Positions 4,428 to 45,745 of a stretch of DNA of 57,809 nucleotides are shown piece by piece. The notes below the pieces were generated by a model. It did no database searches. It was given only the letters and a program-made list of their open reading frames with translations, and was not told where the DNA came from. Position 1 is the first letter of the stretch. Each line of letters opens with the position of its first letter. The DNA comes from Polaromonas sp. (lineage in GTDB: Bacteria > Pseudomonadota > Gammaproteobacteria > Burkholderiales > Burkholderiaceae_C), in assembly GCA_030655515.1 (NCBI GenBank), contig JAURVI010000008.1, positions 1 through 57,809 of the forward strand. The letters run 5' to 3'. The position numbers were made by a program, and so were the translations under genes.

Positions 4428-7657
<3,230 letters not shown>

Positions 7658-32845: not shown

Positions 32846-33277
32846 ATGAACTTCGGCATCGACATTCCCTTTGTCAGCCTCCTGGGTTTCGATCTGACGT
32901 TGTTCGAGGGCGGGCGCTCGCAGATCGACTATTGGCCCAAACCTGAACATCTGAACTCGTTTCACGCCACGCACGGCGGCGCGCTGATGACCTTGCTGGA
33001 CGTGGCCATGGCCCGGGCAGCGCGCAGTGTGCAGCAGGACATGGGGGTGGTCACCGTCGAAATGAAAACCAGCTTCATGCAGCCGGCGAGCGGCAAGCTG
33101 ATCGCCAAGGGCCGGCTGATGCACCGGACCGCCACCATGGCATTCACCGAAGCCACGGTTTACGATTCAGAAGGTCGGGCCTGCGCCCATGCCACCGGCA
33201 CTTTCAAATACGTCAAGGGTGTTGCCGTGGGGCCGAAAAACGTGAACCGGCTCAATACTGTCATTTCAACGGATTAA
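32846..33277 (+). CDS. PaaI-type hotdog thioesterase
   Basis: A 143-residue hotdog-fold protein: the LNSFHATHGGALMTLLDVAM helix with the HGG motif and catalytic Asp, followed by VVTVEMKTSFMQPA and AKGRLMHRTATMAFTEATVY. PaaI-type enzymes hydrolyse aromatic or acyl-CoA thioesters, often to recover CoA from dead-end products. It is next to the SDR and close to beta-oxidation genes, which fits. Its TAA stop overlaps the left edge of the MITE-like element. Confidence 0.92.
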   Translation: MNFGIDIPFVSLLGFDLTLFEGGRSQIDYWPKPEHLNSFHATHGGALMTLLDVAMARAARSVQQDMGVVTVEMKTSFMQPASGKLIAKGRLMHRTATMAFTEATVYDSEGRACAHATGTFKYVKGVAVGPKNVNRLNTVISTD

Positions 33278-33400
33278 GGCAATGCTGAATAAGTCTCCCC
33301 GTTCGGACTGAGCCTGTCGAAGTCCTTCGCAAGTTGTTGATTTGCAAGGGCAGCGTTTCGACAGGCTCAACGCGAACGGACTTATTCAGCGTAGCCTTAA
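33275..33400. mobile_element. MITE-like element, copy A
   Basis: A 126-base element bounded by TTAAGGC.../...GCCTTAA with inverted ends GCTGAATAAGTC. Inside is the REP-type sequence TTCGACAGGCTCA in both orientations around AAGTTGTTGATTTGCAAGGG. No coding sequence. The reverse-complement copy at 45619-45745 differs at about two positions. It overlaps the stop of the hotdog thioesterase gene and may act as a terminator. Confidence 0.8.
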
Positions 33401-38761: not shown

Positions 38762-41700
38762 TTACCATCGAAATCTGAAGGCTCGGTAATCATCCTTTCC
38801 AAGATAGGCGTTTTGCAGGCTCGTGACCTGCAGTTCGAGGATGTCGGACGGTGCGCGTGCCCTGCCGCGCCAGCGCACCTCGCGATGCCATTGCTTGTGG
38901 AAGGCATGAACGAGTTTATGGCGGGAAGCAGCGCGTAAGCGCCCCTCTTTATCAAGCTCGAGGGCGAAGCCTCGACCCAGCATGCCAAGTACGAGCCGGT
39001 CCCCGAATGGTGCGCGAAACTCTTCGATCAGGTCGAACACGAGACTCCCCTGATCGCGCTCCGTGCCGTGAATGATTCCGAAGTAGGGATCCAGGCCAGC
39101 ACGTATGACCGCTCGCCAGACTTCACCGTACAGCATGCCGTAGATATAGTTGAGCGCGCTATTGACGGGGTCTGTCGCATGACGTGTATGGCGCCCGGGA
39201 AACGATAATTCGCCGGGGATGAGGATGGCGAACGAGGACCAATACTTCGCCGCCGCACGGCCTTCGTGCCCCATGGCCGAGGCGCGTGCGGCCACGGCGG
39301 ACGGATCAAGGCCATCGAGCGTTTCGGCGATGCCGCGGATGCCATCGGCGCATCGTGTGAGCTCGCTATAGGCCGCATCGTTCGTGCGCTTGCGATAGCG
39401 GGCGAAATACTTCAAAACGGAAGCTTGGTTGGCGACCTTGGCGGCAAGCATGCTCAAACCGACCTTTAGGATATCCGGATCGTTCCTGCGCAAGACTTGC
39501 TGTTGCCTCAGATTCGACCGGGTGGTCTGGACAGGCAAAGCAATGGCCGCCGGTATCCCCACCAGGGGGGTGAAGACAACTGGAATGTCTTTTTCGCACA
39601 GGCGCATCGTCAGGTCGGCCGAGAGGCCAATCCCCTTGCCTTCCAGGTACACCATTGTCAGTTCGGCAATCGCCATGCGGAATATCTCATTCTTTCGCCG
39701 TCGTACCACCAGGTTGTCTCCGTTTACGGTGACAAAACAGCCGCTCGTCATAACGTGCAATCGCCCGTCGATGACCAGGACATCCGGGTCGGTCACTTGA
39801 TCCGTCAACTGATCGGTGTTCGTACGGTTTGAACTTGAGCGTGGTTCACCGGACGGAGGAGAGGCGTTTGGCAGGCCCGAAGTTCGACTCATCTGATCTG
39901 TCGCGAACTCGTCGGCAAGGTGCGAGGGGCGATCCAGCGGGTAGGCACCAGTCAGGATGGCGACTTCGGCAACGGTTCGGGCCTGGCGCGTGACGACATC
40001 CATATCGGGCAGGAACTTCTCGCGCGACTCCCACGCCAGATCAATTCCGGGAGCCGTCGCAAACCGCTGACTGGCCAGGGCGTCGACAGCGGCATCCATC
40101 TCTGCCAGTTGCGCCCGAATGACTGGTGCATTGTCGATCAAGAAATAATTTCGGAAGCCCCGGATCAGCGCATTCATACCCATGACGGCGTGGTATTTCT
40201 CCATCGATGTTGACTGGGGGATGGCGATGGTTTCAACAAGCTTGCCGACAGTTTGCACGGTACGATCCATTTTGTCCTGCGGTAGACGAACGTCCGACAA
40301 GCCAATCTGAAAGCCAAGAAACCCAATCCCCTCTTCTACGCGGCAATAGTGTGTCTTTGCCGGTTTGAGGGCCAGCCGCAGAACACCCTGGAGAAATTCG
40401 CCCATCAGGCGCAGCGCAGCCTGCGCCTCGGCTTCTGAATTGCAGAGTACGACGTAGTCGTCGGCGTATCGTACAAACGTGGTGCCGGTTTTCTCGAATT
40501 CCTTGTCCAGTGGATCGAGATAGATGTTGGCCAATAGTGGAGAAATTGCCTCGCCTTGTGGTACGCCCAACTCGGAAGGGATGACGTCCATGAAGTCGAT
40601 GACGTCCGCCACCAGCCAATGCCGGATCAATTGAATCAGGTCGCGGTCTCCGATCACGTCGCCAACCAGTCTAAGGACGATTTCATGGTCGATGCTATCG
40701 AAGCACTTGCGAATGTCAGCGGTGACGGCCCATTGCTTACCTGAATAGATCGCGGAACGCGCCAGAGCGACGGCGTGATGGGCACCGCGACCTGGCCGGT
40801 AGGCAAAGCTCGACGGGCTGAATCGCGCATCAAACAACGGCTCGATGAGATGCAGGCAAGCCGCCTGCACCACGCGGTCGCGAACGCAGGCGATCTTGAG
40901 GGTTCGATAGTCCCCGTCAGGCTTGGGTATGCGCGCGGTTCGCAGTGGACGGCAACGGTAGAGGCCTTCGGCGAGTTCCTCGACCAGATGCTGGAGTTCG
41001 ACATCCAGCATGGTGCCGAACTGCTCAATCGTGATGCGATCATGGCCGTGGGAGTATTTATTGTGTCCCTTGACGCGAAACCAGCCGGCGTACAGGGCTT
41101 CCTTCGTGCATAGCTTGCGGTACAGGTCGGCGTTCTGCGGAGCCTGTGAGTCGTTACTCGCAAGGGCAGTCGAGAACTGCTTTACCGGCGACAAGCGCAG
41201 CCGTTTTAGTGCTTGCCGACGAAAGCCCTGGGACAAAGAGCCGCTGGCTTCAGGAGGCCGCACAAGTGCGGTCACCGCTTTATGGTTGGCACCGGATCGC
41301 ACCCAGACTTGTCCGGACTGCAAATCCCGCAGGCGATTGCGCTCGGCGTCGTCGAGCCACCCTGTTTTGATTGTGGCAGGTAAATCGCCGATATCTCCGA
41401 CGATCCAACAGTCGGCATTGGCTTCGAGCCAGTGTCGCGCTGGCGCGGGTAGCGGATGCGCGGCGGAAAATGAGAACAGCCCGACATGTTTGGCGTCCAC
41501 CTCGCCGGCCGCCAGCGGCAGTGGGCAGGCAGTCGGAAAACCGTACATAAGGATGGGCGAATGCCGAATCGCTTCGCCCTGTGGTTTGTCGCCGTTACGG
41601 GAAAGCAGCGCATCCATAAGCGCCGCATCGACCATCCATGAAACCACCTGATGCTCCAATCGCTCGAAATGCGAACCTGGCATTTCGATCCATACTGTTC

Positions 41701-42277
41701 CTCCGAGCGTCAAAGCGTGGCTCAAGTCGACGCAATTATTTCCTTCCGAGAGACTCCATACGGCGGGAAACCGCAAGGTCCAATCCAGCAGTTCGATCAG
41801 GCGATCGAATTCGCCCGAAAGGCTTTGGTTGCGGCGTAGCAGATGCGATGTCTCGGGGCGGCGAAGACTGCGAACCAAAGCAGCCAGCCCAACGCTTCCC
41901 TGGTCCGCAAGGTGATACGCCAAGTCAACGACGGCGTCTATCGTCGGCCCTGAAACAGGTGCAGCGACATGTTGGACGCAACTTTCGAGAAATCCACGCA
42001 AAGCGGATTTCATCCCCGGTGAACGCCTGAAGCGAAACAAAGCGGTGGGCCGCCGCCGGTTGGCAAGATCGCACCAGAGCAGCGGCCCTTTGTGCAGATT
42101 ACCTTTGTTTTTCTCAGTCAACAAGGACGCGAGACTACCCTGATAGTCCACGACGACAAGTGACTGTCCCCGCTCCTTGGCGTGCAGAATCCGGCGCAAC
42201 GCGAGGCCGGCGGCGTTTACAACGCGCCCAAGGATCAGCAGCGGCCGCGGCCCCTCACGGTGGGCACTGGTTTTCAT
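38762..42277 (-). CDS. cas1: ATPase-like/reverse transcriptase/Cas1 fusion protein
   Basis: Proposed start ATG 42277, overlapping the upstream gene by 23 bases; 1171 residues. Residues 1-345 follow a HerA/TraG-type P-loop ATPase pattern: LLILGRVVNAAGLALRRI where Walker A would lie, LVVVDYQGSL (the DPKGE-like strand), TVWIEMPG, LMYGFPTACPLP where Walker B would lie, and LQSGQVWVRSG. The Walker Lys and acidic Walker B are missing. Residues 430-730 are a group II intron-like reverse transcriptase: IPKPDGDYR, ADIRKCFDSID with Asp521, GVPQGEAISPLLANI, and YADD 604-607. Residues 832-1171 are Cas1: Glu1005 in GHEGRAAAKYW, His1070 in IIHGTERDQGSLVFD, then Asp1082 and Glu1085. RT and Cas1 sites are intact. 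RT-Cas1 proteins can take spacers from RNA. GC is lower than in neighbours. No cas2, array or effector is visible nearby. Confidence 0.9.
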   Translation of the reverse strand: MKTSAHREGPRPLLILGRVVNAAGLALRRILHAKERGQSLVVVDYQGSLASLLTEKNKGNLHKGPLLWCDLANRRRPTALFRFRRSPGMKSALRGFLESCVQHVAAPVSGPTIDAVVDLAYHLADQGSVGLAALVRSLRRPETSHLLRRNQSLSGEFDRLIELLDWTLRFPAVWSLSEGNNCVDLSHALTLGGTVWIEMPGSHFERLEHQVVSWMVDAALMDALLSRNGDKPQGEAIRHSPILMYGFPTACPLPLAAGEVDAKHVGLFSFSAAHPLPAPARHWLEANADCWIVGDIGDLPATIKTGWLDDAERNRLRDLQSGQVWVRSGANHKAVTALVRPPEASGSLSQGFRRQALKRLRLSPVKQFSTALASNDSQAPQNADLYRKLCTKEALYAGWFRVKGHNKYSHGHDRITIEQFGTMLDVELQHLVEELAEGLYRCRPLRTARIPKPDGDYRTLKIACVRDRVVQAACLHLIEPLFDARFSPSSFAYRPGRGAHHAVALARSAIYSGKQWAVTADIRKCFDSIDHEIVLRLVGDVIGDRDLIQLIRHWLVADVIDFMDVIPSELGVPQGEAISPLLANIYLDPLDKEFEKTGTTFVRYADDYVVLCNSEAEAQAALRLMGEFLQGVLRLALKPAKTHYCRVEEGIGFLGFQIGLSDVRLPQDKMDRTVQTVGKLVETIAIPQSTSMEKYHAVMGMNALIRGFRNYFLIDNAPVIRAQLAEMDAAVDALASQRFATAPGIDLAWESREKFLPDMDVVTRQARTVAEVAILTGAYPLDRPSHLADEFATDQMSRTSGLPNASPPSGEPRSSSNRTNTDQLTDQVTDPDVLVIDGRLHVMTSGCFVTVNGDNLVVRRRKNEIFRMAIAELTMVYLEGKGIGLSADLTMRLCEKDIPVVFTPLVGIPAAIALPVQTTRSNLRQQQVLRRNDPDILKVGLSMLAAKVANQASVLKYFARYRKRTNDAAYSELTRCADGIRGIAETLDGLDPSAVAARASAMGHEGRAAAKYWSSFAILIPGELSFPGRHTRHATDPVNSALNYIYGMLYGEVWRAVIRAGLDPYFGIIHGTERDQGSLVFDLIEEFRAPFGDRLVLGMLGRGFALELDKEGRLRAASRHKLVHAFHKQWHREVRWRGRARAPSDILELQVTSLQNAYLGKDDYRAFRFRW

Positions 42278-42647
42278 CTTTGGGGAGTGCCGACACAGCG
42301 GCCTGTTCTGGCGTATCGTCATAGGATGCCGTGCGCCGCAGCCGAGAGCGCGCATGGTATTCAGGCCAGTGAAGAAACAGCTTGATTTCGGGGAACCCAG
42401 GTACGAGCGCGTCCGCCACTGCCTTGCAGACGAGGCGGTGTTTCTTGCGCGTGAGACCGGACTGCTGAGGGTGGGCGGGCGACGCACTGCCGTCTTTATC
42501 GTCCAGCGGGGAAAATTGGTTAATCACGCGCTGCAGACTGGCAGCGCGATCATTGAGCTCGGCGAGGAGGTCATGCGCTTCTCGTCGGTTGAGAACAAAC
42601 CCCTGCTCAAGATCAAATTGAACGCCCGTCAGGAAACAATGAACCAT
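42255..42647 (-). CDS. Small protein encoded upstream of RT-cas1
   Basis: Starts at ATG 42647 with AAGGAG six bases upstream; 130 residues. The N-terminus reads MVHCFLTGVQFDLEQGFVLN, followed by a helical region RREAHDLLAELNDRAASLQR and a basic middle part (LTRKKHRLVCKAVADAL). I do not recognise a family and it does not look like Cas2. It overlaps the RT-Cas1 start by 23 bases, so the two proteins are probably made together. A role in adaptation or as a partner subunit is inference from position. Confidence 0.75.
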   Translation of the reverse strand: MVHCFLTGVQFDLEQGFVLNRREAHDLLAELNDRAASLQRVINQFSPLDDKDGSASPAHPQQSGLTRKKHRLVCKAVADALVPGFPEIKLFLHWPEYHARSRLRRTASYDDTPEQAAVSALPKDENQCPP

Positions 42648-42795
42648 GATTGGCTCCTTGAAAGTTGATGGTGACAAGTCAGCAGCGATATCCCTTCCTT
42701 GCACCGCTATCTTCTGCCATGAGTTCTTTCAGTTGCAAGTCCTATCGTGTGTATGGCGCCAGTTAAACTCCAATTGGAATTCGCGATTGGAGAGG
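42648..42795. promoter_or_regulatory. Divergent promoter region of the RT-cas1 operon
   Basis: About 150 bases separate the divergent small gene and the plus-strand gene. The palindrome TCCAATTGGA lies at 42769-42778 near the plus-strand start. No clear -35/-10 pair can be assigned. Confidence 0.4.
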
Positions 42796-43632
42796 ATGTC
42801 GGAACACATGAACTTTTTAACATTGGCGGAGGTTCGGGAACGTGCCCCAGAAATTCGAGCCTGGTTCGATGTCCTGATGGGCAATCGCAGTCTGGCCCCA
42901 AAAAAGAATGCCGCGCAATGGCAATTCTTCCGTTTGTGCCTGGACCAAACCCTGGGCGCCTCACCCCAATCAGCGGATTGGCGTCCGCTTCAAATTGCGC
43001 AATACAAATTTGAAGTAGAGAACAAGTTGCGACGCTTGTACTTACGCGATGGTCAACCGCCGGCGTTTGTCTTTCGGCTAGCCAGCCGCCGCGACGCACA
43101 GCGCGAAAACCTTGTTGTCGATGACGAGTATCCCGAAATTGGGGGATACCACCTGCTGGTGAGCGACAGACGTGACACCTCAGACTCCCTGCAATCGGCG
43201 ACAACAAACCGTGAGCATATTGAAATGGTTATCGCCGCTTGCATTGATACCGAATTTGAAGCGTACCGGACACTGCCCAAGATAGACGACACAAAGATCT
43301 CGCCGTGGTTTGTCAGCCAAGGGCCAGCGCATCGGGATTTACTTCACGCCTTGGAACGGGTAGCACAACGCGCCCTGGTTTTGACGAATCCGCGCAATCC
43401 ATCGACACGACGACTTTTGTCGATTAACATCAAAGAAATAGTCGGCGACACAGCAGAGGTGAGAACCGTCGAGTATTGGTATCTGAGGTGGTGGAGTTTA
43501 ATCGAGAGTAAATATCATTACACCTATCGTGAAACGACGCGCCACACATACATTCTCAAGCAACATGCGGGCAATTGGCTGGTAGAAGAAATAATCCGAC
43601 CCCAACCCTTGCAAAATACTCCACATCGCTAA
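42796..43632 (+). CDS. Protein with possible IMS/NTF2-like C-terminal domain
   Basis: Start ATG 42796 or ATG 42808; GGAGAGG lies just upstream of both. About 278 residues. The N-terminal half is unrecognised and charged (EVRERAPEIRAWFDVLMG, then RRDAQRENLVVDDEYPEIGG). The C-terminal 110 residues (HALERVAQRALVLTNPRNPS, then TAEVRTVEYWYLRWWSL and HTYILKQHAGNWLVEEI) resemble the IMS/NTF2-like fold in which a helix is followed by a sheet ending in WxVxxI. GC is clearly lower than in the surrounding chromosome. Divergent from the RT-Cas1 operon, it may be an accessory partner or an unrelated cargo gene. Confidence 0.6.
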   Translation: MSEHMNFLTLAEVRERAPEIRAWFDVLMGNRSLAPKKNAAQWQFFRLCLDQTLGASPQSADWRPLQIAQYKFEVENKLRRLYLRDGQPPAFVFRLASRRDAQRENLVVDDEYPEIGGYHLLVSDRRDTSDSLQSATTNREHIEMVIAACIDTEFEAYRTLPKIDDTKISPWFVSQGPAHRDLLHALERVAQRALVLTNPRNPSTRRLLSINIKEIVGDTAEVRTVEYWYLRWWSLIESKYHYTYRETTRHTYILKQHAGNWLVEEIIRPQPLQNTPHR

Positions 43633-43987
43633 TTAAATATCTGAAATGTTTTAGATTTCAATATGGAAACCAATCACCTGTCAGATTATACCGATCAATA
43701 CCAGTTCGATTGTTTATACGAAGTTCGACGACCAGCCTTATGTAAATTTATGCTTTTAAATGAGTTTGGAGATAAATCATGAAATCGTACACCTGAATCC
43801 GTGACCTCGTTGTAAAAAATCCAAATTTATCGTTATAACTCAATGAGTTGGATGTAAAATGGTGTTCGCCCTGAAGGTGAATACGAACATGACCGACTTC
43901 ATTATCAAAAAGCTGCCCTACGACCTTTTTTCGGAGTTGATCAATACGGTCAACGAATTTTGATCCTACATCTTTGGGGTAAATTTT
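43633..43987. other. AT-rich non-coding stretch
   Basis: No convincing gene. A good ribosome site and ATG at 43779 lead only to a six-codon frame, and a 24-codon frame at 43889-43963 (MTDFIIKKLPYDLF...) has a weak site. CTGAAAT-N8-TTTCAAT at 43642-43663 recurs with 4 mismatches at 44240-44261. I see no regular repeat-spacer pattern. Confidence 0.5.
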
Positions 43988-44191
43988 ATGAAGCGCTCTC
44001 TTTCCCTCACTGCTCTCTCCCTCACTGCTCTGATGCTGGCCTTCGGTGCCCAGGCCGCAGCGCCTGAAGAAGCCATGAACAAAGCCGGATGCATGGCTTG
44101 TCATGCCAAAGACAAAAAAATGGTTGGGCCGGCCTTCAAGGACATTGCGGCCAAAGGGTACGCAGCATCTTTTACAATCAGCGTTATGTAA
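43988..44191 (+). pseudogene. Truncated class I cytochrome c gene
   Basis: The first 55 or so codons are a normal cytochrome c551/c8-type start: signal peptide MKRSLSLTALSLTALMLAFG up to AQAAAPEE, the heme motif CMACH, and KDKKMVGPAFKDIAAKG. Then the sequence changes to an unrelated YAASFTISVM and stops. The C-terminal half with the Met heme ligand is missing. A 15-base tandem duplication (two copies of CTCACTGCTCT... within the signal peptide) gives LSLTALSLTAL. The gene was probably broken by insertion or deletion at about 44155. Confidence 0.75.
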
Positions 44192-44559
44192 ACAGCAGGT
44201 TTTAATGATGATTTTTCCCTGCATCAGTCCAACTATCACCTGAAATCCTTTGTATTTCAATGCGCTGCGGTGTTATCGGAACATTGTCGAAACCCCCGGA
44301 TTCGACAGCCTTCCGCCCCCCGGTTTCGACAAGCCTCCAAGTCATTGAAAACAGGGCGGTTTTGATGCATGGCAACGTCGTCGTTCAAGCCAGATGTCGA
44401 AATCGTTCTGCCGATTGCCCGCGAGCTGGGCGCGGCGCCCGGAATCGAGGGCGATGGCGCAGGGTTTGGTCGATTGCGCGCGGGAATTTGAACCCGGGAA
44501 TCGTGTTTCGACAATACGAAAAATCCCGATCATGCCCATCCCCCATTCAGTTCCCCGGC
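44192..44559. other. Degenerate region between gene remnants
   Basis: No intact gene. It contains several TTCGAC-type short repeats (44275-44330) and frames that stop quickly. It reads like scrambled remains between the cytochrome fragment and the DUF3368 remnant. Confidence 0.5.
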
Positions 44560-44751
44560 AGAAACGCACCCGCGATCATCGCTCAGCGTCTGGGCGTGAG
44601 CGTAGTCGGCTGCGGCGCTGTGCTGCTGGCGCTCAAATCCCACGGTTTGATAGCCGGTGTGCAACCTGCCTTGGCCGCTTGGCAGGCGCACGGGTATTAC
44701 GTATCGCCAAAGTTGCAGGCAGAGTTGCTGGAACGGCGGTTTCCAGGTTGA
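44560..44751 (+). pseudogene. Remnant of a DUF3368 PIN-like toxin gene
   Basis: The frame ending at 44751 reads APAIIAQRLGVSVVGCGAVL followed by LALKSHGLIAGVQPAL and a C-terminal helix, matching the C-terminal third of DUF3368 proteins, toxin partners in UPF0175-type pairs. The N-terminal PIN acidic residues and any antitoxin gene are missing, and no start codon with a ribosome site precedes it. The last base of its stop codon is shared with the start codon of the following gene. Confidence 0.6.
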
Positions 44752-45614
44752 TGAACCGGCAGGACTTCCGCTGTTTCCACCGGCTGCGGGTGCGCTGGGC
44801 CGAGGTGGACATGCAAAAAATCGTCTTCAACGCGCATTACCTGATGTACTTCGACACGGCGGTCTCCGATTACTGGCGCGCGCTGGCCCTGCCTTACGAG
44901 GCCGCGATGCACCAGCTCGGCGGTGACCTGTATGTCAAGAAGGCCACGGTCGAGTACCATGGCTCGGCCCGGTATGACGACCAGCTCGATGTCGGCATGA
45001 AGCGTTCCCGTATCGGCAACTCGTCAATGGTGTTCGCAAGCGGCATCTTTCGCGGCGACCAGTTGCTGATCAGCGGCGAGCTGATTTATGTGTTTGCCGA
45101 TCCGGCGACGCAAACCTCCAAACCGGTGCCCGCCGAGCTGCGCCGCATCCTGACCGGCTACGAAGCCGGCGAGCCGATGGTCACGGTCCGGCTTGGATCG
45201 TGGGCCGATCTGGGCACCGATGCGGCCACCCTCCGAACCGACGTTTTTGTGCAGGAGCAGGGCATTGCACTGGACATGGAATGGGACGACGCCGACAAGA
45301 CCGCCATCCATGCGGTGGCCTACAACGGCCTGGGCCAGCCGATAGCCACCGGCAGGCTGCTGCAACATGCGCCCGGCATCGGCAAAATTGGCCGCATGGC
45401 CGTCAGCCGCGTACTTCGGGGTTCGGGCCTGGGGCGCACGCTGTTGCAGGCGCTGATGGCAGCGGCCCGGCGGCGCGGCGACACCGACGTGCTGCTGCAC
45501 GCCCAGCGCAGTGCCGAGGGTTTTTACAGCCGCCTCGGTTTCCGTTCGCGCGGCCAGCCTTTCGATGAGGTGCAAATTCCGCACATCGAGATGGTCAAGT
45601 CTTTATCCTCATGA
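44751..45614 (+). CDS. YbgC/FadM-type thioesterase fused to a GNAT acetyltransferase
   Basis: A 287-residue two-domain protein. Residues 1-140 are a hotdog 4HBT thioesterase: RLRVRWAEVDMQKIVFNAHYL contains the catalytic Asp, followed by YLMYFDTAVSDYWR and KRSRIGNSSMVFASGIF. Residues 145-287 are a GNAT domain: LRTDVFVQEQGIALDMEWDD, GKIGRMAVSRVLRGSGLGRT with the acetyl-CoA loop, and AEGFYSRLGFRSRGQPF. Fusion of a thioesterase with an ElaA-like acetyltransferase is known in Burkholderiales annotation as I recall. Both active regions look complete. Start ATG 44751; it overlaps the stop of the upstream remnant. Confidence 0.88.
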   Translation: MNRQDFRCFHRLRVRWAEVDMQKIVFNAHYLMYFDTAVSDYWRALALPYEAAMHQLGGDLYVKKATVEYHGSARYDDQLDVGMKRSRIGNSSMVFASGIFRGDQLLISGELIYVFADPATQTSKPVPAELRRILTGYEAGEPMVTVRLGSWADLGTDAATLRTDVFVQEQGIALDMEWDDADKTAIHAVAYNGLGQPIATGRLLQHAPGIGKIGRMAVSRVLRGSGLGRTLLQALMAAARRRGDTDVLLHAQRSAEGFYSRLGFRSRGQPFDEVQIPHIEMVKSLSS

Positions 45615-45618
45615 GGCT

Positions 45619-45745
45619 TTAAGGCTACGCTGAATAAGTCCGTTCGCGTTGAGTCTGTCGAAACGCTGCCCTTGCAAATCAACAACTTGCGAAGGACTTC
45701 GACAGGCTCAGTCCGAACGGGGAGACTTATTCAGCATTGCATTAA
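45619..45745. mobile_element. MITE-like element, copy B (inverted relative to copy A)
   Basis: Begins five bases after the stop of the thioesterase-acetyltransferase gene and carries at its other end the stop codon of the convergent NRDE gene. It is the reverse complement of 33275-33400 with about two substitutions (GAGTCTG for GAGCCTG, and GCATTAA for GCCTTAA). The palindromic structure could act as a shared terminator. Confidence 0.85.

Follow-up and report, generated by a model that had tools for sequence, protein, structure and literature searches.

RT-Cas1 fusions, which join a reverse transcriptase (RT) to the Cas1 integrase, are known as components of CRISPR adaptation. In the RT-Cas1 and Cas6-RT-Cas1 proteins of type III (and VI-A) systems, a Group II-type RT lies N-terminal to an intact Cas1, and the protein described here shares this arrangement. 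Inspection of seven records of canonical RT-Cas1 loci showed cas2 immediately downstream in six; the seventh, a Nostoc record, has no cas2 in its gene table, which is incomplete. The locus analyzed here is located in the window, namely, the entire 57,809-nucleotide stretch of Polaromonas sp. DNA under study, and its host genome (G000) is a metagenome-assembled genome (MAG) that is 84.8% complete with 5.2% contamination. Its features are listed in Table 1. The locus does not have the appearance of a CRISPR adaptation module: neither Cas2 nor a periodic array nor an effector adjoins the fusion in the window or at the other carrier loci examined. The preliminary description, which envisaged a new adaptation architecture, was thus not upheld in the CRISPR sense. 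We regard the small partner gene and the block of leader, repeat, and captured gene piece, on which that description is silent, as more telling.

Table 1. Features of the fusion locus (window positions unless a locus is named; loci L001, L012, and L032 are other carriers of the fusion)
Feature	Position	Strand	Remarks
Three-part fusion gene	38762..42277	-	1171 aa from ATG at 42277
N-domain, ~residues 1-360	41198..42277	-	Predicted HerA/TrwB/VirB4 fold, without Walker A lysine and Walker B acid
Group II-type RT, ~residues 385-700	40178..41125	-	YADD retained
Cas1 integrase domain, ~residues 838-1171	38765..39766	-	E1005/H1070/D1082 retained
Small partner gene, 130 aa	42255..42647	-	23-nt overlap with fusion start; 89 homologues
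Divergent third gene	42646..43632	+	328-aa frame, ~299 aa conserved; common to window and L032
Large protein gene replacing the 299-aa gene	L001 7275-9581; L012 623-2761	-	P-loop-like GKARKGFGKTHLL-type motif, by eye
Repeat R1	43724..43746	+	Identity to R2, 72% (32-nt register)
Copied piece of host cytochrome c gene	43925..44155	+	Source G000:C28:41744-41974; 230/231 identical
Repeat R2	44170..44193	+	Ends ...TTATGTAAAC; L001 homology begins at 44171
Leader-like conserved non-coding block	44194..44514	+	Rich in TCGA-centred motifs

The frame of the fusion gene is open over 38762-42487 (-), corresponding to 1241 codons, and an alternative GTG start at 42487 would yield a protein of 1241 aa; the length obtained from the ATG (Table 1) is the usual one in the fusion family. 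The RT and Cas1 domains were both matched by Pfam and NCBIfam, with their active-site residues in one chain, and the first 380 residues gave no Pfam or NCBIfam match. The three-part organization of ATPase-like domain, RT, and Cas1 that had been noticed previously was confirmed. In agreement with the same description, the family alignment revealed that the RT and Cas1 sites are intact, the Cas1 active site being retained in 116-117 of the alignment rows with letters at these positions.

At the sequence level, the N-domain did not match the sequences of solved structures and had no significant similarity to TrwB or its VirB4. Its predicted model matched HerA/TrwB/VirB4-type structures over ~290-320 residues, as a member of the HerA/FtsK superfamily would, and the fold matches included the TrwB/VirD4, VirB4, HerA, and DndH ATPases. 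The HerA/TraG/VirB4-type fold proposed in the preliminary description is therefore borne out as a prediction by the model and its structure matches, and the claimed loss of the catalytic lysine and of the Walker B acid was found to extend to the relatives. In the alignment, none of 107 family members has K at the Walker A position, and at Walker B (positions 245-247) there is no D, with E in 2 of 111 members; the combination of Walker A lysine and Walker B acid that marks the superfamily is missing. Cas6 was also considered as the identity of this domain and ruled out, the fold matches being P-loop ATPases. Residues G17, D44, G47, G127, W196, E208, and W291 are conserved in a 30-member family alignment. 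The domain is predicted to be a motor domain of HerA/TrwB fold that lacks the residues for ATP catalysis.

Relatives with an identical domain order were found in the family search and the alignment, in support of the preliminary description. Among the matches listed, 60 proteins are related to the N-domain (38-100% identity), and at least 238 proteins, from the best 7990 candidates scored (120 listed), are related to the RT-Cas1 part. The length of the 121 aligned fusion proteins was 1150-1199 aa in 92 cases and 1100-1250 aa in 106; the short members have likely been cut by contig ends. The copy at locus L011 (genome G035) consists of two frames of 515 and 622 aa, with a frameshift at L011 11217-11237, for which decay and assembly error are both possible. 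The N-domain as a separate gene was rejected, given that the two L011 frames are broken within the RT part and not at the N-domain. Because one member is named Bryobacteraceae, the family crosses phyla. We constructed trees of 18 family members with either 13 RT or 8 Cas1 references, and in both a single branch separated the fusion family from all references (RT, 100/99; Cas1, 99/97). Canonical RT-Cas1 proteins were placed elsewhere, except for a long-branched Arcobacter protein. In the Cas1 tree, this protein was the nearest to the family (99/96), whereas in the RT tree the two belonged to a group that was not resolved. The family RT was placed nearer to the RTs of group II introns, although this position is weakly supported.

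The fusion is rare in genomes. It was detected in 3 of 399 genomes in the family-level search, G000 included; the order-level search returned G000 and four partial matches (E, 5.3e-4 to 9.0e-4), and at the phylum level the single carrier among 369 genomes was the one on which the search was centred. Similarly, G785, the Polaromonas genome that contains locus L001, was the only carrier among 86 genomes searched in its genus. G785 harbors two copies, L001 and L032, along with a separate cas1. The viral contigs scanned contained no confirmed relative. On plasmids, the RT-Cas1 part was matched at <60% identity and no record covered 80% of the query; those of the listed matches that span RT and Cas1 begin at residue 375 or later. 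No phage record covered 80% of the fusion, and the ten phage matches listed are RT only.

The small partner gene, whose ATG is preceded by AAGGAG, lies upstream of the fusion in all seven distinct loci that have upstream DNA (the window, L001 = L033, L032, L034, L035, L011, and L012). As a proxy counted by eye, 27 of 60 fusion clusters match a partner cluster in the exact size of the longest contig. The predicted model of the partner protein (pLDDT, 79.3; pTM, 0.57) had no PDB match at E ≤ 0.001, and its identification as Cas2 was rejected on these grounds. For the large protein of L001 and L012, no Pfam or PADLOC match was found. Related H-NS-like genes with ~70% DNA identity are present near the leader block of both G785 copies (L001 6732-7088 [-] and L032 15143-15499 [+]). 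In L001, a VapD-family gene (6187-6648 [-]) separates the H-NS gene from the leader block; with an NCBIfam value of 1.7e-13, below the cut-off, and a match to the PADLOC Cas2 model at 3.5e-7, it could conceivably provide a Cas2-fold partner at that locus. Three loci have a putative secreted gene directly after the fusion, namely, L034/L002 (after 19694/13498), L004 (after 3135), and L035 (15009-15755 [-]). Its similarity to the Pfam SprT-like family was below the cut-off in L035 (3.8e-5) and L004 (0.0029), and the short end piece present in L002 gave no match.

Always on the upstream side of the fusion, the window, L001, and L032 share a 344-bp non-coding block composed of repeat and leader-like sequence (window 44171-44514). 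Block identity between the window and L001 was 72.0% (250 of 347 columns), as compared to 47.9% and 42.4% in the 150 bp outside the block on either side and to shuffled values with a mean of 45.9 and a maximum of 50.9. The block occurs once per RT-Cas1 copy for all three copies in G000 and G785, and elsewhere in these genomes there is one 30-bp stretch only. Five of the seven carriers had no leader match at E ≤ 0.001, plasmids had no match to the block, and 22 of the 399 genomes of the family-level search had a leader match, the listed ones other than the window measuring 22-54 bp. The sequence TATGTAAAC was found 4 times in 232,238 bases (expected, 0.18), in each case beside a cassette (window, L001, L032, and L012), and TTATGTAAA was found 6 times (expected, 0.14), once away from a cassette, in L036. 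L011 contains TTATGTAAAG and a weak leader match (z, 6.2; 0/200 shuffles; best of 42 comparisons), followed by a 26-bp match in L012 (z, 5.0). Neither repeat nor leader was found in L034, and L035, the contig of which ends ~400 bp upstream, is not informative for either. A model of the RNA structure of the block (model R1), built on 3 sequences, had strong matches at one place each in the window, L001/L033 (a single place), and L032, and otherwise weak matches; no Rfam match at gathering scores was obtained in the window.

R1 and R2 are separated by ~420 bp and do not form a regular array. Two pairs of degenerate direct repeats (74-82%), 43744-43777/43823-43860 and 43641-43662/44240-44261, are situated inside and before this interval and may be remnants of the leader or earlier copies of the repeat. 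On a larger scale, a 127-bp inverted repeat pair (33274-33400 and 45619-45745; 98.4% identical) bounds ~12 kb that include the locus; this repeat is in part palindromic with itself and resembles dispersed repeats.

The copied cytochrome c piece lies between R1 and R2, 14 bp from R2 at the inner edge of the block, and both of its ends are sharp. Its source gene encodes a 106-aa protein (Pfam Cytochrom_C, 2e-6) and is found beside a cytochrome D1 gene. The copy starts 63 nt upstream of the source ATG and stops mid-gene, its sense direction points toward the leader, and the copied frame continues into foreign sequence, where it ends at 44191. In the source, a terminator-like stem was noted by eye immediately before the start point of the piece. 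A search of the source gene listed other stems, including a terminator-like site within the 5' portion that was copied, and detected no promoter-like site. Between R1 and the piece, 178 bp had no useful match in the G000 genome; they contain a sequence that reads like a further gene start, and both this and the first pair of degenerate repeats are no more than suggestive. The evidence for capture thus consists of one locus with one insert of known parent: the corresponding regions of five other carriers yielded no second near-identical copy in the respective genomes, except for scattered short repeats in G035. Since the same-genus homology starts near 44749-44763 (first base of the DNA match) and the upstream side differs, there is no clean empty site.

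We consider it likely that the host cytochrome c piece was captured by the fusion. The RT-Cas1 part would have made the insertion, and the intermediate would have been RNA, because the piece starts 63 nt before the start codon and reads in the sense direction toward the leader. As a tentative reading, which we regard as possible, the stand-alone fusion of dead motor, RT, and Cas1 copies cellular RNA into DNA and inserts the pieces at the nearby leader-repeat site, without Cas2 or a CRISPR array. Host RNA would be reverse transcribed by the RT and captured, independently of Cas2, into the CRISPR-like site; the dead motor may hold the nucleic acid or serve as an assembly platform, the partner protein may take over the measuring role of Cas2, and template switching, which a reference title in PMC11014452 links to group II RTs, would account for joined pieces. 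The stored pieces may serve immunity, regulation, or gene capture. More doubtful is a heritable RNA recorder, free of Cas2 and CRISPR, in which a dead HerA-type platform with RT-Cas1 reverse transcribes cellular mRNAs, links the resulting pieces, and deposits them at a leader-repeat site of its own next to its gene; the window would then hold a fossil cytochrome c transcript. Several points argue against capture, namely, that there is one insert, that R1 and R2 are 72% alike, that the interval is irregular, that L034 has no repeat or leader, that five of the seven carriers lack a leader match at the above threshold, that the L011 match is weak, and that the source gene has no promoter-like site.

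Other explanations were also weighed. The piece may stem from misassembly, or from a partial gene duplication that has no connection with the neighbouring RT-Cas1 gene and leaves the latter without an explanation, in accordance with its being a single case in a MAG of the above completeness and contamination. However, the two copies differ by one base, the ends of the piece are sharp, and it lies 14 bp from the repeat where cross-locus homology starts; we judge such an artefact to be quite unlikely. It also appears improbable that the fusion is a CRISPR adaptation protein that acts in trans, feeding RNA-derived spacers to arrays elsewhere by using the host Cas2. Type III RT-Cas1 fusions are known to acquire RNA-derived spacers (PMC5513706), and separate cas1 and cas2 genes are present in G000, G035, and G785. 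Contig C47 of G000 carries a type I-C locus, as judged from NCBIfam names (Cas8c, Cas7, Cas5c, and Cas1c), with a 16-mer repeated 37 times. On the other hand, these three genomes possess their own Cas1, and they are the only three of the seven carriers in which Cas2 was found, always away from the fusion; the other four had no Cas2 match (drafts; completeness figures for three of the seven). No locus has a Cas2-family match beside the fusion, and a scan for periodic exact 16-mers, which degenerate arrays would escape, detected arrays on G000 C47 and G035 C28, but in none of the 12 window/carrier stretches.

A casposon-like, Cas1-driven retroelement that spreads its own module, with the leader block as one element end, would agree with the constant upstream position of this block, the different neighbouring genes at each locus, and the two copies within G785. 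Yet homology ends at the stop codon of the fusion, the flanks of the three loci compared share 7-mers only, with no terminal repeat or target duplication, and the two G785 copies share no more than 72.7% DNA identity and hence do not reflect recent transposition, so that we attribute little probability to this explanation. RT-based phage defence of the DRT or retron type is unlikely in our view; the block would then act as a promoter or a non-coding RNA, and the cytochrome c piece would have been duplicated by chance. The RT does adjoin a non-coding block and a small gene, both of which are conserved, and the block folds with a z of -3.99 on one strand, but the opposite strand has a z of -1.59 with similar covariation, and because the folds are alike on both strands, no RNA is supported for the block. 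Moreover, the active site of Cas1 is retained across the family, and the PADLOC DRT models scored far below the RT/Cas1 models.

Should the stand-alone fusion indeed copy cellular RNA into DNA, RNA-to-DNA memory can exist outside CRISPR, in a clade with a conserved dead motor, apart from CRISPR and Cas2, and with what seems to be a private insertion site. This reading makes testable the storage of host transcripts by Cas1 integrases, the setting of piece length without Cas2, and the contribution of a catalytically dead translocase. The locus is also a candidate for recording transcription in the form of long inserts and would represent a new kind of genetic recorder.

In the titles and abstract openings listed from the open-licence PMC literature, we found no RT-Cas1 with a HerA/VirB4-type domain, and no such domain was mentioned in the main-text passages retrieved by term from PMC5513706, PMC5541045, PMC6013744, PMC6753606, and PMC12669027. 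In contrast to the type III/VI-A proteins, the N-domain here is a predicted dead HerA/VirB4-type motor and not Cas6, and, unlike canonical RT-Cas1 loci with their downstream cas2, the locus has no adjoining cas2, array, or effector and belongs to a separate clade. With casposons and cas1-solo, it shares a Cas1 without Cas2 or a CRISPR array; it differs from casposons in the fusion to an RT and in that no terminal inverted repeats or target-site duplication were found at three loci. The TrwB/VirD4, VirB4, HerA, and DndH ATPases resemble the N-domain in predicted fold, whereas the latter is devoid of the catalytic lysine and the Walker B acid. Finally, the locus resembles a CRISPR leader-repeat array in its conserved leader-like block, the repeat at the inner edge of this block, and the insert between repeat copies, but differs from it in having one or two diverged repeats and an irregular interval of ~420 bp that includes host-gene sequence.
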